Origin: Prochlorococcus marinus str. MIT 1214
GTDB lineage: Bacteria; Cyanobacteriota; Cyanobacteriia; PCC-6307; Cyanobiaceae
Assembly: GCF_027359355.1 (NCBI RefSeq)
Contig: NZ_CP114777.1
Coordinates: 62,001 to 126,000, forward strand
Reading direction: 5' to 3'
DNA length: 64,000 bases
The position numbers and the translations under genes are program-made. Shown piece by piece: positions 15,193-23,632 of the stretch (position 1 is its first letter; the number at the start of each line of letters is the position of its first letter). Under the pieces are notes generated by a model. It did not search any database and had not been told where the DNA came from. It saw only the letters and a list, made by a program, of their open reading frames with translations.

Positions 15193-16215
15193 ATGAATGA
15201 AAAATCAAATATTTCAAAAAAAGATAAACCTTTAACTATCCTTATAACAGGTGGTTCGTCAGGTATTGGTTATCAAGCGGTTTTAAAATTAATTTCCCTT
15301 GGTCATAATATAATTTTACCTTGTAAAAATATATCTAGAGCAAATCAAGTATTGACTAATATATTTAATCAATCTTCATTTGAATTATCTAAGAAAGGTA
15401 AAATTTATACTCCTATAATGGATCTCTCTGATTTGAATAGCATTGATTTCCTATGTTCTGAACTTAAAATTAAACGTGTGAAAATCGATGTTTTAATTTT
15501 AAATGCCGGTCTTCAATATACAGGATCAAAAATGCCTAGAATGTCTACCCAGGGGATTGAATTAACTTTTGCAGTCAATCATTTATCACATTTCTATCTG
15601 ACACAAAGAATTTTACCTTTAATAGATAAGAACAATGATCCGAAAATAATTATTACATCTTCAGAAGTTCATAATCCTAACAGTGGTGGAGGTAAAGTAG
15701 GCGCTCAGGCAAGCTTGGGAAACTTAAAAGGCTTAGAATCTGGCGCGGGTTTTGAAATGGTTGATGGAAATAAATTTAATGCTGATAAAGCATATAAAGA
15801 TAGTAAATTATGTAATATTTTTTTTGCAAGAAAGTTAAGTAATAAATTGATTAGCAAGAAATTATCAATTCCAGTTATTGCATGGGCTCCAGGCTTGGTT
15901 ATCTCTAGAGATAACCAAGGATTTTTTAGGCACAGCAGGAAATACAATCAATTAGGACAAATATTATTTGCTTTTTTAGCTAGAGATGTTTTAAGAATAA
16001 CCACATCAAATAAAAATGCAGGTTTGCTTTTAAGCAATCTAGCTTCTTTATGTAAATATAGAAAAACTGGTTTTAATTATTATAGTAATAAAATTATTTC
16101 ATCAGGTAAATTTATTTTTGAAGAAACTGATATCAGTAAAGAGGCCCAAAGAGTAGATTTATCAGATAAGTTATGGGATCTATCTCAATCTCTAATAGAT
16201 AAGATACTTAGATAA
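15193..16215 (+). CDS. Protochlorophyllide-reductase-like SDR
   Basis: 340-aa SDR whose core resembles light-dependent protochlorophyllide oxidoreductase (POR): TGGSSGIGYQA cofactor loop, LNAG, and a MVDGNKFNADKAYKDSKLCN block that closely parallels POR's FDGAKAYKDSKVCN with catalytic Tyr and Lys. The rest is diverged: LNAGLQ replaces the POR NAA-type loop and the C-terminus differs. It is therefore best called a POR paralogue; the actual substrate is unknown. The gene is AT-rich with a 296-bp upstream gap and ends 7 bp from the convergent MscS gene. Confidence 0.75.
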   Translation: MNEKSNISKKDKPLTILITGGSSGIGYQAVLKLISLGHNIILPCKNISRANQVLTNIFNQSSFELSKKGKIYTPIMDLSDLNSIDFLCSELKIKRVKIDVLILNAGLQYTGSKMPRMSTQGIELTFAVNHLSHFYLTQRILPLIDKNNDPKIIITSSEVHNPNSGGGKVGAQASLGNLKGLESGAGFEMVDGNKFNADKAYKDSKLCNIFFARKLSNKLISKKLSIPVIAWAPGLVISRDNQGFFRHSRKYNQLGQILFAFLARDVLRITTSNKNAGLLLSNLASLCKYRKTGFNYYSNKIISSGKFIFEETDISKEAQRVDLSDKLWDLSQSLIDKILR

Positions 16216-16222
16216 ATATATC

Positions 16223-17239
16223 TTATTTATTTACATGAATTGTCTGGGTTGGATAAGCGAAGTTAATATTTTCATTTTGGAACTTCTTCATTATTTCTAG
16301 ATTAATTTCTTGCTGAGCTGACATTGCCTGAAGATAATCACTTGTAGGAATATAATAAACAAGTTCAAAATCAAGACTGCTATTTGCGAATTCGATAAAA
16401 TGACATCGGTCGAAGATCGCATTTTCAGTTTTATCAACGATATTTTTTATCATTATAGGTATGCTTTTTGTTTGTTCATATGTAGTTTCATAGACCACAC
16501 CTAATTTATGAACCAGTCTTCTTTTCTTCATCTCAGCATAATTTGAGATTACTCCATTTGTGAGCCTGCTATTGCTCATTATTATTGCTTCTCCGTTAAT
16601 ACTTCTTAAGCGTGTTGACCTGACACCTACGCTCTCAACTTTTGCCCAGATCCCATCAATATGAATAAATTGTCCACTTTGAAATGGTTTATCTAGGAGG
16701 ATCGTTATGTATTCGAAGAACTCTTGAACTGGTTCCTTTAAGGCTAGTCCAGCTCCTATACCCCCTGCACTTAAAAGTGCCCAAATGGCTGCCATTTGTA
16801 CACCCATATTTTGAAGATAAAAAATAGCTCCTAGACTCCAAACAGATGCTCCAATCATTGGACTAAGTGAACGAATCATCTCACTGATAGATTTATCATT
16901 GATTTTGCTTGCCCATCTTTGTATTATTTTGAAAAATACTCTATTTATAAATCTGACAATATAAATAAGACATAGAAACTTACTAATACCTATTAATGTC
17001 TTATCTACTATTCCACCAATTTCTAAGACTTTGCATGCAACTATGAAACTAAAGATAAATCCTAAAGGTTTAATAGTCTCAATTAAAAGAGTAGCTATGT
17101 AGTCATCAGTTTTGCTTTGTGTTGCAGAGGTTATTTTCCTTAAAATCTTTTTTAGGATTTTTGGACTCACCAGGGAAATAATGCAACCTATACTAAAAGT
17201 AAGCAAGGAACTAATTATGTTTTTATAAAAATCATCCAT
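16223..17239 (-). CDS. MscS family mechanosensitive channel
   Basis: 338-aa small-conductance mechanosensitive channel homologue. Several N-terminal hydrophobic segments are followed by the pore helix AAIWALLSAGGIGAGLALKEPVQEF (about residues 150-172) and the beta domain (DKPFQSGQFIHIDGIWAKVESVGVRSTRLRS) typical of MscS. It acts as an osmotic release valve in the inner membrane. It is convergent with the POR-like gene and upstream of the hydrolase gene on the same strand. The function call is strong at family level. Confidence 0.9.
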   Translation of the reverse strand: MDDFYKNIISSLLTFSIGCIISLVSPKILKKILRKITSATQSKTDDYIATLLIETIKPLGFIFSFIVACKVLEIGGIVDKTLIGISKFLCLIYIVRFINRVFFKIIQRWASKINDKSISEMIRSLSPMIGASVWSLGAIFYLQNMGVQMAAIWALLSAGGIGAGLALKEPVQEFFEYITILLDKPFQSGQFIHIDGIWAKVESVGVRSTRLRSINGEAIIMSNSRLTNGVISNYAEMKKRRLVHKLGVVYETTYEQTKSIPIMIKNIVDKTENAIFDRCHFIEFANSSLDFELVYYIPTSDYLQAMSAQQEINLEIMKKFQNENINFAYPTQTIHVNK

Positions 17240-18523: not shown

Positions 18524-19474
18524 TTAAGTTAATTCACCACCACAACTTGAACCAGCTCCAGCAGTACAGCCAAAACAATGATTCCCTATTGAAATAGGTT
18601 TATTCTTTAAAGAGACAAATGGAATCAATAGATCATCCAAATGTTTAACCTTACCATTTCTCTTAATTCCAAGTTGTTGGTTAAAATCACAATCATATAG
18701 GTAACCTTTCCAATCAACACTCAGAGTTGTTCTACACATTACAGAGTTAAGATTCTCTGGATTATGATTTTCTTTAAGTAATTTATTATACTCTTCTAGT
18801 TTCCCCATAACTTTTAAATAGTTTTCATATCTATTGATTGGCATATTTGCTAAAACAAATAAATTCGAGAAACAAATACCATACCTTTTTTTTAGTTCTC
18901 GTCTATAAGTATCTTCTAATTCTTTTTGGGATGGTGGAAGCTGTGGACCGCTTGGATTATAAACTAGATTTAAAAGTAGACCTTTATCTTTTATTCCGTA
19001 ACCAAAAGTGTTAAGTTTTTTAAGAGCTAATATACTTTTTTTAAAAACATTTTTTCCTCTTTGTTTGTCTACATTCTCCTCGAGATAACAAGGCAGTGAT
19101 GCAGTTATTTGTACTTTATTTGATGCTAAGAAGCTTGCTAAATGTTCATAACCTGGCTCTGTTAGTATTGTCAAATTACATCTGTCCATTACTTCAACAT
19201 TAAGACTACGAACTTCTTTTACTAATTGTATAAATTTAGGATGAAGTTCGGGGGCTCCTCCAGTAATATCTAGTAGCTTTATATTGTTAGCCTTTATTAC
19301 TTTAGGTATAAGTTCTATAATATCATCGCTCATCATTTCTGTTCTGCTTGGACTAGAATCAACGTGACAATGACTGCAGGCCTGATTGCATTTATAACCT
19401 ATATTTATTTGCAAGGTGTCAAGATTGTCTCTGTTGATTTTTGGGAATTTTGTTTTAGTTATCTCCATAGACAT
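18524..19474 (-). CDS. arsS: Radical SAM protein ArsS (arsenosugar biosynthesis type)
   Basis: 316-aa radical SAM enzyme. The cluster motif is CNQACSHC (CxxxCxxC) near residue 29, followed by the HVDSSPSRTE signature of the TIGR04167 ArsS family, and the C-terminal DUF3641-like part ends HCFGCTAGAGSSCGG with several cysteines. In this family the enzyme transfers the adenosyl moiety to dimethylated arsenic to make an arsenosugar precursor. The usual partner ArsM is not seen nearby. The neighbouring Fur regulator is convergent, so no operon. Confidence 0.85.
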   Translation of the reverse strand: MSMEITKTKFPKINRDNLDTLQINIGYKCNQACSHCHVDSSPSRTEMMSDDIIELIPKVIKANNIKLLDITGGAPELHPKFIQLVKEVRSLNVEVMDRCNLTILTEPGYEHLASFLASNKVQITASLPCYLEENVDKQRGKNVFKKSILALKKLNTFGYGIKDKGLLLNLVYNPSGPQLPPSQKELEDTYRRELKKRYGICFSNLFVLANMPINRYENYLKVMGKLEEYNKLLKENHNPENLNSVMCRTTLSVDWKGYLYDCDFNQQLGIKRNGKVKHLDDLLIPFVSLKNKPISIGNHCFGCTAGAGSSCGGELT

Positions 19475-19557: not shown

Positions 19558-20760
19558 TTAAAAGTTACTAGCTAATTGTTTAAACCACTTTATATATTCT
19601 CTTGGACCATCATTGATAACCAGATTCAATTTTAAATCATCATTAGGATCACTAATACCTGTCATATCAGTTCCATTAATTCTTGGTCTTTTTACCTGAT
19701 CGTTGCAGCTGTTAACAAATACAACTTGATTCTCTTTCTTGTATGATTCTCCCAACCTTTGGATCAATGTTAAGAAACCTCTATCACTTCCACCTCTTAA
19801 CCAAGAATTATCTTTATTATCTTTAACCGAGGTTACTGTATCGCCAACCCCTATTAGCAGTGGCATTTGTGCACTTGGAATTTTATCTCTGCACAGCTCT
19901 ATTAATTTCTTATGTGTCTTTGGAGCATTCCTGACATTGAAATTTTCACCGAAAGGATAAACACCAGTTTTGTTTGATATGTATTTATTTAATAGCAGTA
20001 AAAGGCCTGCTTCTTTTATTGCACCATTGATAATGAACTGAATATCTGTTGTCCCAAATTCATTTTGAGTTGAATATTTCATTATTTCTCTGCCATCTCT
20101 TATCCCTAGATTTGGCATCAAATGAAGATAAAAAGAGTTTTCTAAGCCAATATTTTTAGCTTTTTCTAATAAAATATTCATTATTTTTTCCATAATCAAT
20201 TGCAAATCTTTCACTTTTTGAAAATCATTTTTAACGTAACTAAAAATTTCATTAAAGTTTAAAGTGGGAGTAAAGCGCGTGTCACAAACAGCTACATCAA
20301 TTAATTTGTTTCTTAACTCATTTGGAAGATCTGGTAAGTATTTTTTTAATTCATTAGTTAACATTGATCGCATCATCTTTGGAACTTTTGCTAAAAAGCT
20401 AATCTCATTATCTTTGAGCCCTGGATGGGATAAATTACTAAATCTATCTTGAAATTCAACTCCACATGCCGCAAGCCCAGGTAAGTAAAAGCCATTTTCT
20501 TTTGCTGTTGTTTTTGAATTAAGTGCTTTCTCTACTAAACGATTAACGCCTCTTCTGCCTTCATGCTCCCCGCAGGTTAGGACGGCAAATTTCTCTCTTA
20601 ATCTTGAAACGTCCTCCACATATTCTTTGTTGATCTCTCTTTTGAGTGGGTCTTGAACAAGTGGGATACAAACGCCGTCAAGATCCTGAACTATTAGGAT
20701 ATTTTGTTCATTTAGTATAGTGTTAATAACTTCTTCTTTCGTTTTAAACATTTTCATCAA
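19558..20760 (-). CDS. stpA: Glucosylglycerol-phosphate phosphatase-like HAD protein (StpA/GgpP)
   Basis: 400-aa protein matching the StpA family, which removes the phosphate from glucosylglycerol-3-phosphate in salt-tolerant cyanobacteria. Near the start LIVQDLDGVCIPLVQDPL holds the HAD-type nucleophile pair Asp26/Asp28, and LTCGEHEGRRGVNRLVE is typical of the family. Later blocks LLIGVGDTVTSVKDN and NGTDMTGISDPNDDLKLN carry conserved acidic residues. No ggpS-like synthase lies in the window, so the true substrate is open. It is divergent from the 513-aa unknown gene, with a 159-bp shared promoter region. Confidence 0.8.
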   Translation of the reverse strand: MMKMFKTKEEVINTILNEQNILIVQDLDGVCIPLVQDPLKREINKEYVEDVSRLREKFAVLTCGEHEGRRGVNRLVEKALNSKTTAKENGFYLPGLAACGVEFQDRFSNLSHPGLKDNEISFLAKVPKMMRSMLTNELKKYLPDLPNELRNKLIDVAVCDTRFTPTLNFNEIFSYVKNDFQKVKDLQLIMEKIMNILLEKAKNIGLENSFYLHLMPNLGIRDGREIMKYSTQNEFGTTDIQFIINGAIKEAGLLLLLNKYISNKTGVYPFGENFNVRNAPKTHKKLIELCRDKIPSAQMPLLIGVGDTVTSVKDNKDNSWLRGGSDRGFLTLIQRLGESYKKENQVVFVNSCNDQVKRPRINGTDMTGISDPNDDLKLNLVINDGPREYIKWFKQLASNF

Positions 20761-20919
20761 AGAAGCCTTTAAATATTAGTTTACTATGGCTCAAATTAAT
20801 ATACAAATTCTTGATACTTCTTATTCTTAAATGAGTATATAGATATATATTCAATATAATAAAAACTATTTTAAAAGTTTCATATTATTGTATATAATGT
20901 AAATGAATGCAAATACACA

Positions 20920-22461
20920 GTGTTTGATAAGAATTTAAGTAATAGCTTCTTTGCTGAGCCTTATTCAAGTGAGCCTATAGCCATAAGAATTCGAGAGGTT
21001 TTGAATGGGAATGTAGGGTTTTATAGTGTCGGCTTGTATCCTGCTTCCCTTGCCTATAACTGTGCGTTGCAAAATGAAGGTTTAAACATTCTTTTAGCCC
21101 CCAGAGAAGGTAGAGAACTTTTTGGAGCTTTCTCTGATATTGAGCTGTCTGGAATGGATAACTGTATAAAAAATAAAATTGAATCTATGGCAATTTCAAA
21201 TGATGATAAATCAGGAAGATATAATACTCTTAAGGATTTAATAATTAAATGTGAATTAGTTCTTTTGAGCTCAAATAGTAAACATATAATAAACGACGTA
21301 AATTTAGCATTTAAACTCAAAAAAGAACTTCGTAGAGATAACGTTTTAATTGCATGTTTAGTTGGTTCATTTTGTCATGATTTTAATTTGAATGAATCTT
21401 TTGTGTTGTGCGAAAAATTAAATAATCTAGCTTTCTTTTCAGGCTTTCATCGACACGGCGCTCTTCGAAATCCATTAGATAGTTTTACGGCTAATTTTTG
21501 TCATCCAGATGCTATGAATGCAATATTAGGTGCAAAATTATTAAATAAAATTTCACCAAATATTCAAGTTTCTGCAGGTATTCATAATATTGAAGGTCAA
21601 TATATAAAAGCTGCTAAAAATATATCTTCAATCTTAGCGGGTTTTGGCCATGCTTTTCATAAGAATAATCCTGGATTGTTGCCAACGTTGTTAACTCTAT
21701 TGTTAGATCAATGCCTAGATCAGGCAGCCTATGTTTCCATGCGTCGAACAGATAGGGAGAATTTATATATAAAACAACCTTTCCCTATTACTGAACTTGG
21801 ATATAGCGTCCAACGAATAGAGGCGTCCTATCTTAAGGATGGAGATTTTGTTCAGGTAAGAGATCATACTTTTACTCAATTGACAGCTATGGTTGCCGAT
21901 GTGAGAGGCAGTATGATGTTGCCTGTAAGTGGCAAACCAACTAGGAATTTTCAAGCTGGTGAAGTCCTAGCTGAGAGGATGATTGAGTATAAAAGATGTC
22001 CAAAAGGTGTAGATGAGTTTATAGAATGGTGCGAAATATCTGGTCTTAAACGAGGAGCTTTAGAAGGTATAAACTCTTTAAATTATTGGCCAGACATCTT
22101 AAGAAAATATTCAATACCGTTGAATAATTCCTCAATGATTAATCTTTTATATATGTGTATAATGGGTCCTTTCGAGATTAAAAATTATATTTATAATGTG
22201 ATGACAAGTAGCCGTGAATTAGCTAATTATTGTCAAGAATCTGTTAAGTCATGCAAGAGCAAGAAAATCTCTGAAGCACTTAATAGTTTCCATCTAAAAA
22301 CTTCTATTGATTTTTTAACAAAGGCACTAACTGATGAAGATCAATTATTTTTTGAATTAAATGAGATTGACTTTGATAATCCACTAGGACTAGAAGATCA
22401 GCCTATTTATAAGAAAGTTATTGATTACATGGAAACTTATTTGATAGAATCTAATGTATAA
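20920..22461 (+). CDS. Conserved 513-aa protein of unknown function, possibly dehydrogenase-like
   Basis: 513-aa soluble protein not recognised with confidence. The N-terminal part (NVGFYSVGLYPASLAYNCALQNEGLNILLAP) looks like a beta-alpha-beta nucleotide-binding start with a degenerate glycine motif. The middle block AAKNISSILAGFGHAFHKNN faintly resembles the substrate domain start of NAD-dependent glycerol-3-phosphate dehydrogenases. GTG start at 20920, with TATAAT at 20892-20897 about 25 bp upstream. It overlaps the NahK-like kinase by 8 bp (ATG of the kinase inside this gene's end), and diverges from stpA, so a shared pathway is likely. Confidence 0.7.
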   Translation: MFDKNLSNSFFAEPYSSEPIAIRIREVLNGNVGFYSVGLYPASLAYNCALQNEGLNILLAPREGRELFGAFSDIELSGMDNCIKNKIESMAISNDDKSGRYNTLKDLIIKCELVLLSSNSKHIINDVNLAFKLKKELRRDNVLIACLVGSFCHDFNLNESFVLCEKLNNLAFFSGFHRHGALRNPLDSFTANFCHPDAMNAILGAKLLNKISPNIQVSAGIHNIEGQYIKAAKNISSILAGFGHAFHKNNPGLLPTLLTLLLDQCLDQAAYVSMRRTDRENLYIKQPFPITELGYSVQRIEASYLKDGDFVQVRDHTFTQLTAMVADVRGSMMLPVSGKPTRNFQAGEVLAERMIEYKRCPKGVDEFIEWCEISGLKRGALEGINSLNYWPDILRKYSIPLNNSSMINLLYMCIMGPFEIKNYIYNVMTSSRELANYCQESVKSCKSKKISEALNSFHLKTSIDFLTKALTDEDQLFFELNEIDFDNPLGLEDQPIYKKVIDYMETYLIESNV

Positions 22462-23632
22462 AATAAACTCTAGGGAATGTGAAAAAATAAATTTAATTAC
22501 TTGCAAGTTTTTTGAAAAGAGTAAACTTTTAAATATAGATTTTATAGATTCTGGCCTTATAAATAAAACGTATATCATTGAACATTTAATTAATGGGACA
22601 AAGTCTAAATTTATTTTGCAGAGACTTAGTAATATATTTGAATCCTATGAAGGAATTAATATGAATCATAAATTAATAACTGAACATATTAAAAATAAAA
22701 TAAAAAAAAAAGATCTTAAATTTGATAATAAAAGGTGGGAGGTTCCATTTTTAATTAAGTGTAATTCTAATAACCTCTATTTGCTCCCATATCATTCAGA
22801 ATTTTGGCGAGCGATGAAATATATAGATCATACTCTTAGTTTTGATATTTTAGAAGATAATAAAATGGCTTATGAAACAGGACTTGGCCTTGCTAAGTTC
22901 CATAGGATTTGCTCCGATATTGACCTTACAAAATTAGAAAATACTATTAAAGATTTCCATAATACAAAGCACTATATAGCTCAATTTAATTTGATCATCA
23001 AGGATTATAACTTCATTAAATTAGACGATAAAGTAAATAAAAGAGTTCAAAATTTAATTGTTAACTTATCTAATCATATTTTATATGTTGAATATTTATT
23101 AGGATATTTAATGGGAAAATCAATACAATCTAATTTAATTCATGGCGATCCTAAGTTAAGTAATTTCCTTTTTGATATTCAAGATAAATATGTTGTCTCT
23201 TTAATTGATCTAGACACTGTTTCTTCGGGTTATTTACTTTCTGATCTGGCTGATTGTATTCGTTCCATTTGTAATATGGCAGGGGAGGATTCAGATAAGA
23301 TAGAGAATGTATACTTTGATATTAATTGTTGTCAATATTTTCTCAAAGGCTATTTCTCAATACCTAATGAAAAAGCTAATTACTTCGAGTTCCTTCCCGA
23401 ATTTATTTATTTGATAATAGTTGAATTAACTATTAGATTCCTAAATGATTTTTTGCAATCAAATAGATACTTCAAAATAAAATATCAAACTCACAATCTA
23501 TATAGAGCAGAGGTTCAATATCGATTACTTACAAGTTTCATTACTCAAATTCCTACTTTGTCAAATTCACTTCATGAAATTGGGATTTCTACAAACTCAA
23601 CTTTTGTCTCAGATGTACAAAAAATTGTTTAG
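22454..23632 (+). CDS. NahK-like sugar/aminoglycoside-fold kinase
   Basis: 392-aa phosphotransferase of the aminoglycoside-kinase fold. The catalytic loop LIHGDPKLSNFLFD (His230, Asp232, Asn237) and the metal-binding LIDLDTVSSG (Asp252) are present. FILQRLSNIFES near residue 54 and SICNMAGEDSDKI around residue 275 follow the pattern of N-acetylhexosamine 1-kinase (NahK) relatives, which phosphorylate the anomeric carbon of sugars. Very AT-rich. Start overlaps the preceding gene by 8 bp, showing translational coupling. Substrate is unknown; a sugar or polyol is inferred. Confidence 0.78.
   Translation: MYKINSRECEKINLITCKFFEKSKLLNIDFIDSGLINKTYIIEHLINGTKSKFILQRLSNIFESYEGINMNHKLITEHIKNKIKKKDLKFDNKRWEVPFLIKCNSNNLYLLPYHSEFWRAMKYIDHTLSFDILEDNKMAYETGLGLAKFHRICSDIDLTKLENTIKDFHNTKHYIAQFNLIIKDYNFIKLDDKVNKRVQNLIVNLSNHILYVEYLLGYLMGKSIQSNLIHGDPKLSNFLFDIQDKYVVSLIDLDTVSSGYLLSDLADCIRSICNMAGEDSDKIENVYFDINCCQYFLKGYFSIPNEKANYFEFLPEFIYLIIVELTIRFLNDFLQSNRYFKIKYQTHNLYRAEVQYRLLTSFITQIPTLSNSLHEIGISTNSTFVSDVQKIV

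Follow-up and report, generated by a model that had tools for sequence, protein, structure and literature searches.

A putative, highly divergent glycerol-3-phosphate dehydrogenase associated with glucosylglycerol genes in Prochlorococcus and other marine cyanobacteria

Glycerol-3-phosphate (G3P) is the backbone of membrane glycerolipids, yet no recognized enzyme makes it in most Prochlorococcus, a gap already noted in print (PMC3369817, PMC9361551). Where these cells obtain their G3P is the question raised by a locus in the closed, 1.93 Mb genome of Prochlorococcus marinus str. MIT 1214 (G000; the handles G, L, and g denote sampled genomes, loci, and genera, respectively), analyzed here within a window of 64,000 nucleotides (NZ_CP114777.1, positions 62,001 to 126,000; coordinates below are those of the window). 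A 513-aa protein, hereafter UNK, is encoded from a GTG start at 20920..22461 on the forward strand, next to the divergently oriented gene for StpA/GgpP, a phosphatase of the glucosylglycerol-phosphate phosphatase family (19558..20760, reverse strand, 400 aa). Its modeled structure and genomic distribution suggest that UNK is likely to function in vivo as a divergent G3P dehydrogenase.

UNK received no Pfam or NCBIfam assignment, and searches against PDB sequences, including a profile search, returned no significant match. The profile for the C-terminal domain of G3P dehydrogenase (PF07479) touches 5 of 41 UNK members, with a best E of 0.0069 that is below the cut-off; the match lies in the expected C-terminal half (UNK residues 306–418 against profile positions 43–139). 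An AlphaFold2 model built with 41 homologues (pLDDT 82.4, pTM 0.84) predicts the fold of a G3P dehydrogenase, comprising a Rossmann domain and a helical C-terminal domain. When this model was compared with the PDB using Foldseek, a G3P dehydrogenase occupied each of ranks 1–11 (E from 4e-9 to 1.4e-7), with matches to human GPD1, GPD1-like, and the Archaeoglobus, Leishmania, and Dunaliella (6iuy) enzymes; TM scores by target were mostly 0.62–0.71, with two Dunaliella chains at 0.39 and 0.43. The next class of enzyme, pyrroline-5-carboxylate reductase, appeared at E 1.6e-5 and a query TM of ~0.27, as compared with 0.44–0.48 for the G3P dehydrogenases.

The predicted active site retains a conserved set of residues. 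Invariance was judged in two overlapping alignments, of 22 and 41 rows, and the pattern K-N / D-x-x-x-S / T-R-N-F-x-x-G is invariant in both; K233, N234, D327, S331, R342, N343, F344, and G347 are found in every row. In a hand alignment, GpsA LKNVMAIAVG corresponds to UNK AKNISSILAG, and a second GpsA stretch corresponds to UNK TFTQLTAMVADVRGSMMLPVSGKPTRNFQAG. On this register, GpsA K194-N195, D247, R258-N259, and G263 match identical residues in UNK (K233-N234, D327, R342-N343, and G347), while GpsA T251 corresponds to S331. The pattern holds even in the very divergent high-light (HL) sequences, the stem branch of which measures 2.05 changes per site in the UNK tree. The KNI..I..G block on which the initial annotation based its suspicion of a GpsA relation is present as KNISSILAG at residues 233–241; that suspicion is borne out by predicted fold and active-site pattern, though not by profile homology, which is not significant.

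The distribution of UNK is largely complementary to that of GpsA. The main distribution sample comprised 250 Cyanobiaceae genomes, of which 105 contain GpsA as identified by PF07479, all over the cut-off; no genome sampled from the window's genus is among them. UNK occurs without GpsA in 141 genomes and GpsA without UNK in 83, with both present in 22 and neither in four, three of these last being G066 (90% complete), G104 (94%), and G247 (99%, ~30 contigs). Fisher's test on this table gives 6e-40, a value that does not represent independent evidence per genome. Outside the family, all five UNK-bearing genomes tested also have GpsA. EC 1.1.1.94 has been reported as unannotated in Prochlorococcus and Syc7803 (PMC3369817), and gpsA has been described from freshwater and brackish strains, with an FAD-dependent version in marine ones (PMC9361551). 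A search limited to the open-access literature found no proposed replacement for GpsA, and the main text of the published Prochlorococcus metabolic reconstructions that were checked names no G3P dehydrogenase gene.

Other recognized sources of G3P also appear to be missing. Neither GlpD (PF16901) nor GlpK (TIGR01311) was found in any of 16 sampled genomes of Prochlorococcus-type lineages lacking ggpS (G000, G025, G019, G060, G065, G097, G118, G067, G098, G150, G269, G226, G074, G102, G081, and G108), where either could have been an alternative source; the marine Synechococcus tested have both, as does G265, which carries ggpS. PlsY, which consumes G3P, was identified in every one of the 15 genomes searched for it, a set that includes 12 of these same 16, and G3P is a measured metabolite pool in axenic Prochlorococcus VOL29, an HL-I strain (PMC6392094). 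UNK is probably the sole source of G3P in the source genome.

UNK is closely associated with StpA. Among the 250 genomes, UNK occurs in 163 and StpA in 167: 161 contain both, six StpA only, two UNK only, and 81 neither. The first genus search yielded 29 full-length loci, and in each of them the two genes are divergent neighbors (an additional contig is truncated); in the other genera examined they are mostly divergent neighbors as well, with genes intervening in several Synechococcus and the two lying apart in a few genomes. In genera g29 and g36, UNK is embedded in a glucosylglycerol (GG) cluster with the order htpG, ggpS, ggtB, ggtC, ggtD, ggtA, UNK on the opposite strand, stpA, a gene of the GH13 type, glpD, and then a gene identified as glycerol kinase by the search for GlpK. 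The arrangement from ggpS through ggtBCDA, UNK, stpA, and the GH13 gene to glpD is seen at L094 and L100, the same gene set occurs at L150, and L164 ends within the cluster. Outside Cyanobiaceae, UNK was found in seven genomes of a 242-genome class sample; all seven have ggpS over the cut-off, as compared with only 56 of the 242 overall. In one unrelated genome outside the family (G323), ggpS, a glpD-like gene, and UNK follow in order on one strand. Strains CH-040 and ATX 6A2 have been reported as the sole freshwater strains with ggpSP and with glycerol kinase (PMC9361551); both carry UNK (L187, L189). Four contigs filed as Gammaproteobacteria metagenome-assembled genomes (L138, L157, L165, and L175) also contain this typically cyanobacterial locus and are probably binning errors. 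No phage- or plasmid-borne copies of UNK were found, and matches to the gene in G010 (L019) and at L188 each carry a single in-frame stop codon that may lie close to the C-terminus.

On sequence grounds, StpA belongs fully to the glucosylglycerol-phosphate phosphatase family (HAD), which confirms the first annotation: it scores 528.6 bits against TIGR02399, above the equivalog cut-off of 365.5, and matches PF09506 at E 1.2e-173. The initial annotation saw no glucosyltransferase nearby and considered the usual GG route incomplete; this absence extends to the whole source genome, a search of which returned no match to GgpS (TIGR02398) and so rules out a hidden copy elsewhere. None of the 17 genomes sampled from the window's genus contains GgpS, nor, except for G265, do those of the large genus g32, while StpA is present in 17 of 17 and in nearly all of g32, respectively; StpA is therefore kept, under purifying selection, without its known synthase. 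Reviews likewise describe most Prochlorococcus as without GG synthesis genes (PMC6753628, PMC4390839). In G265, ggpS, glpD, and glpK lie within ~16 kb (C1:1417899–1433945; L230 in part); this module was apparently acquired and resembles that of a Red Sea isolate cited in reviews. The same three genes are carried by G069 (L098), G073, G076, G088, G089, and G091, of genera g34, g38, g41, g53, g54, and g56. The g34 genome seems to derive from a single cell and to be filed as Prochlorococcus, and the statement that Prochlorococcus lacks GG synthesis may thus hold for some lineages only. Any specific role for StpA in Prochlorococcus without ggpS is much less certain than the assignment of UNK.

Taken as a G3P dehydrogenase, UNK would be a soluble, highly divergent, NAD(P)-dependent enzyme converting dihydroxyacetone phosphate (DHAP) and NAD(P)H to sn-glycerol-3-phosphate. 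It may have arisen in the GG module of marine cyanobacteria that retained GpsA as well, or have been drawn into that module; within it, UNK would convert DHAP to G3P, GgpS would form GG-phosphate, and StpA would release GG. The housekeeping GpsA would then have been lost in the ancestry of marine Synechococcus and Prochlorococcus, with UNK taking over the supply of G3P for lipids by the PlsY route; in Prochlorococcus-type lineages that went on to lose GgpS, GlpD, and GlpK, UNK would be the only source of G3P, and so essential. The GG module of Prochlorococcus without GgpS would in this case have shrunk to UNK and StpA. If correct, this scenario gives a function to a conserved, unannotated gene of the most numerous phototrophs on Earth, closes a gap in metabolic models, provides a case of a housekeeping step passing to an enzyme of an osmolyte pathway, and singles out the persistence of StpA in cells unable to make its known substrate as a further question.

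The StpA and UNK starts (20760 and 20920) are separated by a 159 bp divergent intergenic region (20761..20919), which was aligned in 16 loci and probably contains at least the UNK promoter. Its best conserved block includes TATAAT at 20893..20898 (forward strand), a likely −10 box 21 bases upstream of the GTG codon that is kept in the window and in most of 15 relatives; the conservation of this box supports the GTG start. Downstream, UNK overlaps by 8 bp (22454–22461) with a predicted NahK-like sugar 1-kinase of the APH fold (22454..23632, forward strand, 392 aa). Median dN/dS values across 28 genomes within the genus are 0.18 for StpA, 0.16 for UNK, and 0.30 for the kinase, reflecting purifying selection, and together with the conserved promoter box these values argue against a chance observation. 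The initially annotated reading frames, overlap, and divergent spacing agree with recomputed coordinates, and the motifs described then as DLDG, HGD..N, and DLD were found as QDLDGVC in StpA and as HGDPKLSN and LIDLDT in the kinase. A gene for an MscS-type mechanosensitive channel (16223..17239, reverse strand; PF00924, PF21082) is a conserved neighbor of the StpA/UNK locus, and at L150 and L164, too, an mscS gene lies close to the GG cluster. An ArsS-type radical SAM gene (18524–19474; TIGR04167, arsenosugar synthesis) is a conserved neighbor of StpA; an SDR protein gene (15193–16215), for which the best NCBIfam match is protochlorophyllide reductase at well under the cut-off, is kept in the neighborhood across much of the family.

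Several observations weigh against the assignment of UNK as a G3P dehydrogenase, or against parts of the scenario built on it. No significant sequence-family match of UNK to PF01210, PF07479, or GpsA models was found, and hhalign comparisons of the UNK profile with cyanobacterial GpsA under several settings were not significant (probability 0.8%, p 0.07). The motif register between UNK and GpsA is a hand alignment, the fold search having given no residue-level alignment. The GxGxxG dinucleotide motif is replaced in UNK by S36-x-G38-x-x-P41, invariant or nearly so, and the position of the GpsA substrate lysine K111 (equivalent to human K120) falls at UNK residue 148, where A, V, or S occurs without conservation. 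UNK also contains an invariant block of its own, GFHRH...D..T.N, beside the expected substrate site; with SxGxxP and the missing second lysine, this makes UNK G3P dehydrogenase-like rather than GpsA proper. In the UNK tree, genomes without GpsA occupy a minimum of two distinct positions, one being the marine Synechococcus/Prochlorococcus assemblage and another G090, which implies that losses of GpsA were few and that the 250-genome table does not record 250 independent events. StpA has nearly the same genome profile, so that fold rather than profile singles out UNK. Finally, the complete genome G124 contains ggpS and StpA without UNK; this genome, along with those containing both UNK and GpsA, shows that GG does not strictly depend on UNK.

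These peculiarities allow that UNK retains the fold but acts on another substrate, such as a keto-phosphate or a glycosylated ketone, making a solute other than GG together with StpA while another enzyme supplies G3P to lipids. SxGxxP, the missing K120 equivalent, and the unique block at the expected substrate site would fit such a role, as would a pairing with StpA that outlasts the loss of ggpS. However, this explanation leaves an essential metabolite to be made by a second unrecognized enzyme. The invariant residues for catalysis and substrate match those of G3P dehydrogenase, and the ggpS and glpD-like neighbors of UNK in G323 suggest G3P; we consider the explanation unlikely. Somewhat less probable is that StpA and UNK together do, as two proteins, what the Dunaliella glycerol enzyme does, running from DHAP through G3P to glycerol as an osmolyte or overflow product. 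The conserved divergent pair, the HAD fold of StpA, the place of Dunaliella salina GPDH (6iuy) among the top fold matches, and the retention of both genes where ggpS, glpD, and glpK are gone are consistent with this idea, though GG-phosphate is the substrate of characterized StpA, no published mention of glycerol as a solute in Prochlorococcus was found, and glycerol could not be reused without GlpK. Such a route would add to a G3P dehydrogenase role for UNK rather than replace it. The broad combination, in which the UNK family, drawn from osmolyte synthesis, replaced GpsA across marine Synechococcus and Prochlorococcus, provides the only entry to glycerolipids in Prochlorococcus without GgpS, and with StpA also forms glycerol or a glycerol-derived solute, is doubtful as a whole.

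That UNK only supplements the G3P available to GG synthesis, or is a relic of the GG operon, with StpA and UNK surviving in Prochlorococcus as leftovers, agrees with the GG cluster as original context; it is nonetheless quite improbable given the dN/dS of 0.16, the retention of UNK in almost every complete genome sampled that lacks ggpS, and the lack of any other G3P source found in these genomes. A single sugar-phosphate pathway joining phosphatase, UNK, and kinase appears very improbable. The kinase is NahK-like as first annotated, with homology to N-acetylhexosamine 1-kinases (4ocu/4wh1; phmmer E 8e-29, about 1e-28), a PF01636 match at E 4.8e-10, and APH-type motifs; it is adjacent to UNK, with the 8 bp overlap, in the window's clade, and the three genes stand side by side in many other loci. 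However, it evolves faster, is missing beside the StpA/UNK pair in the sampled HL loci and in G060, and elsewhere can lie kilobases away; in many Synechococcus, SbcCD-like genes intervene between UNK and the kinase. These neighborhood data rule out the kinase as an obligatory partner, and it is probably a neighbor rather than a functional part of the StpA/UNK unit. In many Synechococcus (L106, L153), the kinase is followed by a small gene and then a lytic-transglycosylase-like gene. Of the three genes for which a functional tie was initially proposed, StpA and UNK co-occur and mostly stay adjacent, whereas the kinase is not a stable part of the unit, and the suggestion that the trio might make, salvage, or recycle a glycosylated polyol is not needed, as a supply of G3P to GG synthesis and lipids would explain UNK.

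Among known systems, GpsA and the NAD(P)-dependent G3P dehydrogenases (PF01210 and PF07479; EC 1.1.1.94 / 1.1.1.8) are the best structural match of UNK among solved structures; UNK shares their K-N, D, S/T, R-N, and G active-site positions and takes the genomic place of GpsA. It differs in being ~170–200 residues longer, in lacking a significant sequence-profile match, in having SxGxxP for GxGxxG and no conserved substrate lysine, and in the unique block GFHRHGALRNPxDSFTANFCHP. In Dunaliella, phosphatase and G3P dehydrogenase are fused in one chain. The D. salina enzyme DsGPDH (6iuy), which forms glycerol osmotically, resembles the present pair in placing a G3P dehydrogenase fold near HAD phosphatase activity in an osmoregulatory setting; here, however, two divergent genes are involved, and the known substrate of StpA is GG-phosphate. 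The kinase matches NahK, the N-acetylhexosamine 1-kinase, in homology and in its HGD..N and DLD motifs, but its gene is not stably linked to StpA and UNK. The Synechocystis-type GgpS–StpA pathway, with ggtBCDA, glpD, and glpK, shares with this locus a member of the StpA family, and in other cyanobacteria UNK lies inside clusters of this kind; in contrast, GgpS, GlpD, and GlpK were not found in the source genome, and the Synechocystis literature consulted names GlpD and GlpK but no UNK-like protein.

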